Part shown: piece after piece, positions 36,805-40,940 of the stretch | How the letters are laid out: each line of letters begins with the position of its first letter | How positions within the stretch are numbered: the first letter of the stretch is position 1 | NCBI RefSeq assembly: GCF_001049895.1 | Contig: NZ_CVPE01000003.1 | Span: forward strand, 372,001 to 436,000 | Direction: 5' to 3' | DNA length: 64,000 bases | From: Rubeoparvulum massiliense | GTDB lineage: Bacteria; Bacillota; Bacilli; Rubeoparvulales; Rubeoparvulaceae | Position numbers and translations under genes: made by a program | Notes under the pieces: generated by a model | Databases searched by the model: none | Seen by the model: only the letters and a program-made list of their open reading frames with translations | Told to the model about the DNA's origin: nothing

Positions 36805-37572
36805 ATGTTACCATCCTTATTTTTAGCCCACGGTTCACCGATGATTGCCCTTGAGAATAATCCTTATACACAATTTCTTAGAGCGTATGGCCAGCAGCAT
36901 CACCCTCGTGCTATTCTCATCTTCACAGCGCACTGGATCAGCGATACACTCACAATCTCTGCTGTTGATGAGCAATATAAGACCATCTATGATTTCTATG
37001 GCTTTCCCCCAGAACTCTATGAAATTCAGTATCCTGCTAAGGGATCTTTACAAATCGCAAAGATGGTCCAGCAACGCTTCATGAAGGAGAATATTCAGGT
37101 TCTACTAGATCATCAGAGAGGATTAGATCACGGCTCTTGGACACTCCTTCATCATCTCTATCCTGAAGCCAATATTCCAGTGATTCAAATCTCAGTCAAT
37201 CCTTCGCTCTCACCAAAGGAACAGTTCCGTATTGGGCAGGCTCTTCAGGGACTTCACGAAGAAGGATTCCTAATTATAGGAAGTGGTGTTACTGTACATA
37301 ATCTCTCCATGCTCAAGTGGGGAGAGACCACACCTGAACCATGGGCCGTTCAGTTTGATGATTGGTTAATCGAGCAGATTAATAAGAAGGATCTAGAAGC
37401 ACTGGACCGTTACGAGCAGTTAGCACCCTCAGCACAGCTGGCTGTTCCCACCACCGAGCACTTCATCCCCCTCTTCATCGCCATGGGGAGCGCAAATATC
37501 AAGGCGAAGCCCACCATCCTTCATCGAAGCTATGACATGGGAACACTGAGCTATCTCTCATTTCAGTTTTAA
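36805..37572 (+). CDS. DODA-type extradiol dioxygenase (YgiD-like)
   Basis: 255 residues. Class III extradiol (LigB-type) fold with metal-ligand motifs: PSLFLAHGSPMIALENN, FTAHWISDTLTI, DHGSWTLLHHLYPEANIPVIQIS, GSGVTVHNL, and TTEHFIPLFIAMGS. E. coli YgiD is a zinc-dependent 4,5-DOPA extradiol dioxygenase; the substrate here is not known. GAGGTG lies 6 bases before ATG 36805. It is monocistronic. Confidence 0.88.
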   Translation: MLPSLFLAHGSPMIALENNPYTQFLRAYGQQHHPRAILIFTAHWISDTLTISAVDEQYKTIYDFYGFPPELYEIQYPAKGSLQIAKMVQQRFMKENIQVLLDHQRGLDHGSWTLLHHLYPEANIPVIQISVNPSLSPKEQFRIGQALQGLHEEGFLIIGSGVTVHNLSMLKWGETTPEPWAVQFDDWLIEQINKKDLEALDRYEQLAPSAQLAVPTTEHFIPLFIAMGSANIKAKPTILHRSYDMGTLSYLSFQF

Positions 37573-37601
37573 TTTTTTGTTGCTACACACCAGCGAGCAG
37601 C

Positions 37602-37636
37602 AAATCCCCATCTGATTTAACGATGGGGATTTGTTT
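37602..37636. terminator. Terminator between the dioxygenase and DJ-1-like genes
   Basis: AAATCCCCATC pairs perfectly with GATGGGGATTT followed by GTTTT; A-rich on the other side, so it works for both convergent genes. Confidence 0.85.
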
Positions 37637-37644
37637 TATGTTAT

Positions 37645-38127
37645 TCAATCATAATCCTGTTGTAGTATGCTAACTGGTTTAACCGAGTTCATTACTTTGT
37701 CCACCATCGCTTGCCCTACTTTTTCTCGGATAATCCAAGAGACCAATTCTTGTGCTGCGAAACAACTGGCAGCAGTTGCGATGTTCTGATTAACAACGAA
37801 GCTCTCCCTTACAGGAATGGCACCAATCAGTTGTCTCTGTGGATCTAATTTGATGCGATTTAAATATTCCTGATCTTGAATGAGTTGGTTGACTCCAGAG
37901 CCACTTGTCAAGATGACTACATCAGAGTCTATTATATTATCTAATCTTCCTGTTGTTGGGACGTGAAGTCCTGACATGGAGACATGAGACTCTTTCGTTC
38001 CGATGATATCTACCTGCCAATCTTTCAATCCACCAACTGATTCCCAAGCCACGCGATTTAATAGATCCCATGGTAGAAATAGATCAAGATCCGTAAAATC
38101 ATCAAAAATTACGAGGGATATTTGCAT
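37645..38127 (-). CDS. DJ-1/PfpI-family protein lacking the catalytic-Cys segment
   Basis: 160 residues, against about 190-200 for relatives. The N-terminal MQISLVIFDDFTDLDLFLPWDLLNRV and middle VVILTSGSGVNQLIQDQEYL...RQLIGAI fit the glutamine amidotransferase-like family. The next part should be the nucleophile elbow (C-S-G) with about 35 residues of strand and helix. Instead the frame continues directly to PVRESFVVNQNIATAASCFAAQELVSWIIREKVG, the C-terminal block. So an in-frame internal deletion at about 37,800-37,820 has removed the active site. The gene is otherwise intact with an SD (AGGAGG). Enzymatic function is unlikely; it may be decaying. Confidence 0.75.
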   Translation of the reverse strand: MQISLVIFDDFTDLDLFLPWDLLNRVAWESVGGLKDWQVDIIGTKESHVSMSGLHVPTTGRLDNIIDSDVVILTSGSGVNQLIQDQEYLNRIKLDPQRQLIGAIPVRESFVVNQNIATAASCFAAQELVSWIIREKVGQAMVDKVMNSVKPVSILQQDYD

Positions 38128-38324
38128 TCCTCGTCCTCCTTTCAGCCTTCTCCGAAAATAATTTATGTTCGGAAGATACTTGTGGTATAAGTGTTGTATT
38201 CTACCATTATGTAGTCTTTTTTATAATATCATACAGCCCGTGGTGAACAATAACGGAGCACCTCTCGATCTTCAATATTAGTATTTTAATATTTATAAAA
38301 AAAATTATCCTCTAAAATCTATAA

Positions 38325-38432: not shown

Positions 38433-39656
38433 ATGGGTACAAAGTATTTACTCAAAGGTGGACGTCTAATCGATGGTAAGGGCAATACACTGGAAAATAG
38501 TGCACTCTACATTGAAGATGACAAAATTAGCAAAGTTGGAAAAGCAGATGAACTAACGGTAGCAAATGATGTAACGGTCATTGACATTACAGGAAAAACC
38601 GTGATGCCCGGCTTCATCGATGCCCATATGCATCTCATTGGTGTAAAAAATCTTAATCTTGCTCAAGCCGCACTGGAACCAACCGAACTCCTCATGGGAC
38701 GTGCCTTGAAGGATTTGGACAAGCTAATCAATGCTGGTTTTACAACGATTCGAGACGTCGGTAGTCCTGTGGCTGTTCATATCAAGCGCTTAATTAAAGA
38801 GGGGTACTATACCGGCCCACGTATCCATACAGCCCATCTCATGCTATCACAAACAGCTGGACATGGTGACATTCACAATCTACCACCCGAGTTCAACCTC
38901 TTTGAAGTATGCGATGGTCCTGATGAGTGTCGAAAGGCAGCACGCAAGCAATTTCGCGCTGGTGCAGACTTTATAAAAATTTCTTCTTCCGGTGGCGTTC
39001 TTTCTGAAAAGGATGACCCCCGTTCTCCACAATTCACGGTGGAAGAGATCAAAGCCATTGTCTATGAAGCAGAAGCTGTAGGTTCCTATGTTGCATCCCA
39101 CGCCCAAAGTACACAGGGCATTAAAAACGCCTTGATTGCTGGGGTTCGTACCATTGAGCATGGAATTCTCATCGATGACGAAGGAATTGAGATGATGCTT
39201 GAAAGAGGTGCCATCCTTGTCCCTACATTATCCATTGTGAAACGCATTGTCGAGCAAGGCCATCTTTATGGCGTACCAGAATTCGGTTTGGCTAAATCCC
39301 GTTACTTCTATAAGCTTCATAAACAGAATGTTCGGAAGGCCTATCAAGCAGGTGTGAAAATCGCTGGTGCCACAGACTTCCTTGGCTGTAAGCCTGTTGA
39401 ACACGGAGGAAATGCCGAGGAATATGAAATATTTGTTAATGAGCTCGGCTTAAGCCCCATGGAAGCCATTACTTGCGGAACGCAAAACGCTGCTGACGCC
39501 CTCGCCATCGGTGATAAAACGGGTTCATTGGAGGAAGGAAAACTAGCTGATGTGATCGTTGTGAATGGAAATCCCCTCGATGATATTACCGTCCTTCTTA
39601 ACACAGACAATATTGAAAAAGTCTTTGTTGAAGGCCAGCTCTTAAAGGATCGGTAG
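38433..39656 (+). CDS. Metal-dependent amidohydrolase (imidazolonepropionase/prolidase-like group)
   Basis: 407 residues, TIM-barrel amidohydrolase. Metal motifs: PGFIDAHMHLIG (HxH), DFIKISSSGG (bridging Lys), VASHAQST (His), RTIEHGI (His) and AGATDF (Asp). The small beta-sandwich halves flank the barrel (N-terminus and the TGSLEEGKLADVIVVNGNPLDD end). It resembles Xaa-Pro dipeptidases/Sgx9260-type enzymes that cleave N-acyl or dipeptide substrates; the substrate is unknown. SD AAGGAG precedes ATG 38433. A membrane permease follows 105 bases downstream, probably for the same compound or its product. Confidence 0.85.
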   Translation: MGTKYLLKGGRLIDGKGNTLENSALYIEDDKISKVGKADELTVANDVTVIDITGKTVMPGFIDAHMHLIGVKNLNLAQAALEPTELLMGRALKDLDKLINAGFTTIRDVGSPVAVHIKRLIKEGYYTGPRIHTAHLMLSQTAGHGDIHNLPPEFNLFEVCDGPDECRKAARKQFRAGADFIKISSSGGVLSEKDDPRSPQFTVEEIKAIVYEAEAVGSYVASHAQSTQGIKNALIAGVRTIEHGILIDDEGIEMMLERGAILVPTLSIVKRIVEQGHLYGVPEFGLAKSRYFYKLHKQNVRKAYQAGVKIAGATDFLGCKPVEHGGNAEEYEIFVNELGLSPMEAITCGTQNAADALAIGDKTGSLEEGKLADVIVVNGNPLDDITVLLNTDNIEKVFVEGQLLKDR

Positions 39657-39761: not shown

Positions 39762-40940
39762 ATGCTTGATCAGCCCATTATTGCAGTTGCTTTACTCTTT
39801 GGATTACTGGTAGTTGGAGAAGTGATCTCCATCTTGAGTCGCGCACGGATCCCCATGCTCTTTGTGGTGTTTATCGGATATTTAATCCTGCTTTGGACTG
39901 GCATCTTTCCTGAAGATATTGTGGATAAATCTACACTCAAAACCTTTGCAGCTTTAATGATCGCACCACTCATCGTTCATATGGGTACACTTATTCCTTT
40001 TAAAATTATGAAACAGCAATATAAAGCAGTGCTCATTGCACTGACAGGGATCATCATCGCAGCGGTTACAGTACTCCTCGTGGTAACTCCAATCTTGGGC
40101 TATCCTTCTGCTGTCTCTGCTATCGGTCCCTTAACAGGTGGAATCATCGCTTTCCTTATTACATCTGATAAGCTTCAAGCTATTGGCCTATCCGCACTGG
40201 TTGTCATCCCAGCATTAGTCCTTGCTTTACAAAGTATTGTGGGCCTTCCCTTAGCTTCTAATTTGCTCCGCAAGTACTCCTATAAGGTGCGGGATCAGTA
40301 TGAGGCCGAGCAAGCACTACAGCAGGAAGCCGCTGCCACAATGGAAGCAGTAGAGGATGAGTCTACGAAAAAACTCTGGATTAAAGAAAAATATGCAACG
40401 CCTGTAGTAATTCTCTTCCAACTTTTTCTTGGTGGTGCATTGGCGGTGGCGCTTGGAAATTGGACGGGAATCAACTATAGTCTATGGGCTCTCGTTATCG
40501 GGTTCATTGGAATGTTTGTAGGCTTCTATCCCGAAAAGTCCATGGTCAAAGCCAATTCTTTTGGCATCGCGATCTCAGCCTTGATTATCTTTATCCTTCC
40601 ATCCTTGAACAGTGTCACATTTGACGTCTTTATTAAGAATATTCCTGTTGTTTTACTTATTCTAGGAATTGGTGCTGGAGGAATCATCCTTGGAGGCTTT
40701 ATTGGTTCCAAGCTGTTTAAGTGGGAACCAACCCTGGGGATTCCTGTTGCCCTGACGGCGATGTTTGGCTTCCCTGGAGATTATATTATCTGTGATGAGA
40801 TCAGCCGTTCCACAGGTCGTACAGAAGATGAGCAAAACTATATCTTTGAAAAGATCCTCTCCCCACTGCTTATCGGTGGCTTTACAACCGTTACTGTGGC
40901 GTCCATCGTCATTGCTAGTATCTTGATGGAAACATTATAA
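39762..40940 (+). CDS. Integral membrane permease, family uncertain
   Basis: 392 residues with about ten membrane helices in two halves, separated by a charged cytoplasmic stretch (EAEQALQQEAAATMEAVEDE). No family recognised for certain; the layout (AFLITSDKLQAIGLSALVV; GIPVALTAMFGFPGDYIIC with polar residues in helices) recalls glutamate- or keto acid-type secondary carriers. Paired with the amidohydrolase upstream, so transport of its substrate or product is likely. A GAAGGT-type SD lies before ATG 39762. Confidence 0.6.
   Translation: MLDQPIIAVALLFGLLVVGEVISILSRARIPMLFVVFIGYLILLWTGIFPEDIVDKSTLKTFAALMIAPLIVHMGTLIPFKIMKQQYKAVLIALTGIIIAAVTVLLVVTPILGYPSAVSAIGPLTGGIIAFLITSDKLQAIGLSALVVIPALVLALQSIVGLPLASNLLRKYSYKVRDQYEAEQALQQEAAATMEAVEDESTKKLWIKEKYATPVVILFQLFLGGALAVALGNWTGINYSLWALVIGFIGMFVGFYPEKSMVKANSFGIAISALIIFILPSLNSVTFDVFIKNIPVVLLILGIGAGGIILGGFIGSKLFKWEPTLGIPVALTAMFGFPGDYIICDEISRSTGRTEDEQNYIFEKILSPLLIGGFTTVTVASIVIASILMETL

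Follow-up and report, generated by a model that had tools for sequence, protein, structure and literature searches.

The DJ-1/PfpI gene and its surroundings

The window (the whole 64,000-nt stretch of DNA that was analyzed) carries on its minus strand, at 37645–38127, a reading frame that runs uninterrupted from an ATG to a stop codon and encodes 160 residues. Strand, start codon and length were as given in the initial annotation, and the assignment to the DJ-1/PfpI family was borne out by a match to Pfam PF01965 (DJ-1_PfpI) of 28.8 bits, against a cut-off of 26.6. This match covered residues 2–93 only; in two full-length relatives, DJ-1_PfpI matched across ≈150 residues, with 66.0 and 69.3 bits. 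The sole NCBIfam match of the 160-aa protein was to IF-2, at chance level and far under the cut-off. The locus contains the following features:

36805–37572, LigB-family dioxygenase gene, convergent with and downstream of the DJ-1 reading frame (Pfam)
37601–37633, plus strand, hairpin with a 12-bp stem, a 9-nt loop and the U-rich tail TTTTATGTT, the tail being present on the plus strand only
37645–38127, minus strand, DJ-1/PfpI-family reading frame of 160 aa with an in-frame loss of 34 residues (list of open reading frames, Pfam and alignment)
37813–37818, minus strand, deletion junction, at which the Ile104 codon that ends LIGAI (37816–37818) is followed by the Pro105 codon that begins PVRESFVV (37813–37815) (sequence and alignment)
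38135–38142, minus strand, ribosome-binding-like sequence AAAGGAGG, 7 nt upstream of the ATG (from the sequence)
38433–39656, amidohydrolase gene, divergent from and upstream of the DJ-1 reading frame (Pfam)

The Shine–Dalgarno sequence (AAAGGAGG), start and frame are intact, as previously described. The intact terminator that had also been ascribed to the gene did not hold up: the hairpin at 37601–37633 is followed by a U-rich tail in the plus sense alone, and thus fits a terminator of the LigB-family gene, not of the DJ-1 gene. A terminator scan limited to loops of 8 nt reported no candidate on the plus or the minus strand. On the minus strand, an inverted repeat (ACGAGG/CCTCGT, 38111–38134) flanks the start codon of the DJ-1 frame and folds as a hairpin. 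The surrounding 121-nt region had a z-score of −2.2, with 3 of 200 shuffles equally stable; the hairpin may affect translation or may be due to chance.

The LigB-family protein came near the 4,5-DOPA-extradiol-dioxygenase family NF007914, but stayed under its cut-off (218 vs. 233 bits). Behind the amidohydrolase gene lies a reading frame (39762–40940) for a hydrophobic, membrane-protein-like product of 392 aa, which had no Pfam or NCBIfam match at E ≤ 0.001. Judged by reading, the reading frames around one of the full-length relatives (L010) look unlike these neighbors, so that no conserved partner is indicated.

The catalytic segment is missing from the protein and present in the relatives aligned

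Thirty-four relatives, all ≤43% identical over the window protein, were aligned with it. They comprised five of seven loci from a scan of genome contigs and, from a class search with full-length L010 (186 aa) in which 32 of 398 genomes matched, 29 of the 31 matches outside the window's own genome. L009–L015 are the same genes as L027–L033, and these seven loci were counted once. Left out were L004 (whose C-terminal part, close to the end of a contig, is out of frame), L008 (masked), the window itself, G012 and G017 (no locus obtained), L017 (distant, with a CTG motif), a pseudogene in genome G130 (with CSG) and two partial matches from a phylum search. Twelve of the relatives are close (36–43% identity over the length of the window protein). 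The other 22 (18–24%) belong to a more distant group, and the evidence on the near subfamily therefore rests on the 12.

Between the end of LIGAI and the Cys of ATAASC there are 17 residues in the window protein, 51 in 32 of the 34 relatives and 52 in the remaining two. The loss thus amounts to 34 residues or 102 nt, close to the "about 35" residues first noted, and the position of the junction is good to a few bases either way. The first missing column holds a Cys in all 34 relatives, as CSG, CAG or CTG. This is the nucleophile elbow with the catalytic Cys, the defining feature of active DJ-1/PfpI members. In the window protein the elbow is absent and LIGAI runs straight into PVRESFVV, exactly as the initial annotation had read it. 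The alignment with relatives that it had proposed gave a uniform answer, with the segment and the Cys kept by all 34, and the case it had named against itself, a short form lacking the Cys as the standard in relatives, was found in none of them.

Matches outside the alignment agreed. L004 and L008 also carry the segment, and in the 20 listed of 32 plasmid matches, the DNA span exceeded the query by 30–35 codons (by arithmetic), as expected with the segment present. When full-length L010 was used as the query, the window match ended at position 98, the sole one of the 32 to stop before 165.

We considered whether the segment had been relocated. When the 35-residue segment of L010 was run against the genome, nothing came up beyond one weak hit (23 residues, E 0.34), which sits in a distant, intact DJ-1 paralogue on contig 4. 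This 352-aa protein, the genome's one other DJ-1_PfpI match, has its Cys in STVCGGS. A search for repeats listed no direct repeat with a copy at the junction. Since a deletion between direct repeats would remove one copy together with the segment, this search is uninformative on such an origin.

The gene is patchily distributed: 10 of 200 related genomes matched at E ≤ 0.001, the window's own included. The same-family and same-order searches each covered one genome, the window's own, and the phylum search (398 genomes) gave two distant partial matches apart from that genome. One of the 10 is G130, of the same class, which carries a gene of the same DJ-1 subfamily that is evidently a pseudogene (L016 and L019; contig 5, ≈424–938). 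Three in-frame stops lie between its N-terminal part and a point just past the elbow, and its C-terminal match is in another frame; the CSG stretch is still present. At least one lineage besides this one has therefore lost the subfamily gene, presumably independently.

Sequence constraint and predicted fold

Among the retained positions of the alignment, 34 are invariant in the 12 close relatives, and the window protein alters four of these (residues 72, 103, 121 and 136), including the Ser two before the lost Cys and the Gly of ATAxGC. In a leave-one-out comparison, nine of the 12 relatives altered none, L005 and L007 altered one each and L032 three, counts that are lowered by kinship among the relatives. 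Mean identity in the C-terminal part was 34% between the window protein and the relatives and 46% among the relatives; in the N-terminal part the values were 48% and 51%. The terminal branch of the window protein (0.67) was the longest in the close clade, where the others were ≤0.36, a length partly expected for a lineage that has the window as its sole member, with no close relative in the tree.

Codon use, which the initial annotation had proposed as a check, was also unusual. The DJ-1 frame scored −0.012, against a mean of 0.077 (SD 0.038); 3 of 64 pieces of long reading frames reached a score this low, and nine neighboring genes all scored higher (0.061 to 0.118). The wrong frames of long reading frames lay below it (means of −0.167 when shifted and −0.101 when reversed), and one wrong frame of the DJ-1 gene itself scored −0.008, slightly above the true frame. 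The codon check points to relaxed constraint or foreign origin, weakly by itself. Taken together, the codon use, the changed residues, the fast C-terminal part and the long branch, each weak singly, suggest a mild relaxation of constraint, though part of the pattern could instead reflect a foreign origin or the isolation of the lineage.

In a neutral simulation run until four invariant residues had changed, 33% of the runs that allowed substitutions only still had an open frame, as did 9% of those with an assumed indel rate. Survival of the open frame under pure decay is thus possible, if not favored, should all four changes postdate the deletion.

The best AlphaFold2 model of the window protein had a mean pLDDT of 80.9 and a pTM of 0.79 (the five models ranged from 62.3 to 80.9); at the junction, a strand (100–104) leads through a loop into another strand (111–113). 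A full-length control, L002 from a Chloracidobacterium MAG, gave a mean pLDDT of 88.5, and in this model the missing residues (98–131) form the elbow helix, a short strand and a helix. The best PDB match of the window model was 3bhn (TM 0.81 by query and 0.62 by target length, rmsd 3.5), but this predicted resemblance to a flavodoxin-like alpha/beta fold rests on five longer relatives and likely follows them; the control model matched 3bhn with a TM of 0.92 and an rmsd of 2.1. Such a model is not proof that the shortened chain folds.

The 3bhn entry (ThiJ/PfpI domain protein Shew_2856 of Shewanella loihica) was also alone among PDB sequences in matching at E ≤ 0.001 (6.9e-24), with ≈30% identity in the fold alignment. 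By sequence, only the two parts that flank the junction align well with it, the second stretch being weak. Next-best by fold, at ≈21% identity, was isocyanide hydratase of Pseudomonas fluorescens (PDB 3non, 6ni6 and mutants). The titles of its mutant entries name Cys101 and Asp17; the window protein has lost the Cys and has kept the Asp of FTDLD, the putative counterpart of Asp17. Among proteins of solved structure, this formerly ordinary member of the DJ-1/PfpI family is nearest to 3bhn by sequence, with isocyanide hydratase next in fold.

Probable loss of function and its alternatives

The observations are probably best explained by an in-frame deletion that, so far as the searches show, is confined to this lineage, in a patchy, dispensable DJ-1/PfpI gene, leaving a dead enzyme that is probably in early decay. 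A single 102-nt in-frame deletion would have removed the catalytic Cys, the elbow helix, the short strand and the next helix, and the product should then be unable to carry out Cys-dependent chemistry; the gene, a member of a patchily distributed, dispensable subfamily, is most likely in early decay. The absence of the segment and of the Cys, and the presence of both in the relatives examined, are shown directly, whereas we infer a single event, loss of activity, decay and a correct assembly at the locus. The clean loss of the 34 residues that bear the active site is most likely that of an unneeded gene starting to decay. As a pseudogene, it lacks an essential segment, yet its frame is still open. 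If the gene is decaying, it is an ordinary case of a DJ-1/PfpI label above the Pfam cut-off that does not denote an active enzyme.

Counting against decay are the open frame, the good ribosome-binding-like site, the 30 of 34 invariant positions kept and the fairly confident AlphaFold2 model. The same points, with the match of that model to 3bhn, would favor a non-catalytic binding or scaffold protein, in which the deletion was tolerated and a compact fold kept for another purpose. Function without the Cys has a precedent in AtDJ1C of Arabidopsis: according to the available part of its description (PMC3160306), it is a member of the DJ-1 superfamily that lacks the conserved Cys and has an essential role. 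However, that text describes a chloroplast protein of two tandem domains and mentions a missing Cys, not the loss of a segment, and a narrow literature search, which included the accessible part of PMC1782040, found no described case of a superfamily member that had naturally lost the elbow segment. The absence of the short form from the relatives examined, the signs of relaxed constraint and the different neighbors of L010 also speak against a retained protein, which we consider unlikely. More specifically, it is improbable that selection has preserved here, as a binding protein without enzymatic activity, a compact DJ-1 fold minus the elbow and a strand–helix unit; if the protein were folded and kept, the DJ-1 fold could shed its catalytic unit and still serve. 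Between the two readings originally offered, decay or a non-catalytic role such as binding, the best fit is a loss of function together with early decay, and a kept binding role is possible, with no positive support found.

The short form might also be fixed and standard in the window's own lineage (its order), whatever its role there. The family and order searches, which covered the window's own genome only, leave room for this, but in the relatives that were examined beyond this lineage the gene is of the long form, and we give the idea little weight. It overlaps with the preceding one, since a short form fixed in the lineage could also be a kept protein, and the probabilities of the alternatives do not sum to one.

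That the real gene carries the segment, and the gap is an assembly or sequencing artefact, is quite improbable: there is a single assembly, in 6 contigs, and since a collapse between repeats would keep just one of the copies, the repeat search does not speak against it, but the lost length divides exactly by three and leaves a good frame, and the changes at otherwise invariant positions suggest a gene already under weaker constraint.

Two further observations were made on other DJ-1 proteins. The 352-aa protein of the same genome (L024, 1450–2508) appears, by reading, to have a C-terminal extra part of ≈100 residues after a Ser/Thr-rich linker. On a Priestia megaterium plasmid (L026, 3920–5180), two adjacent DJ-1/PfpI genes lie near Tn3 transposase and integrase genes.
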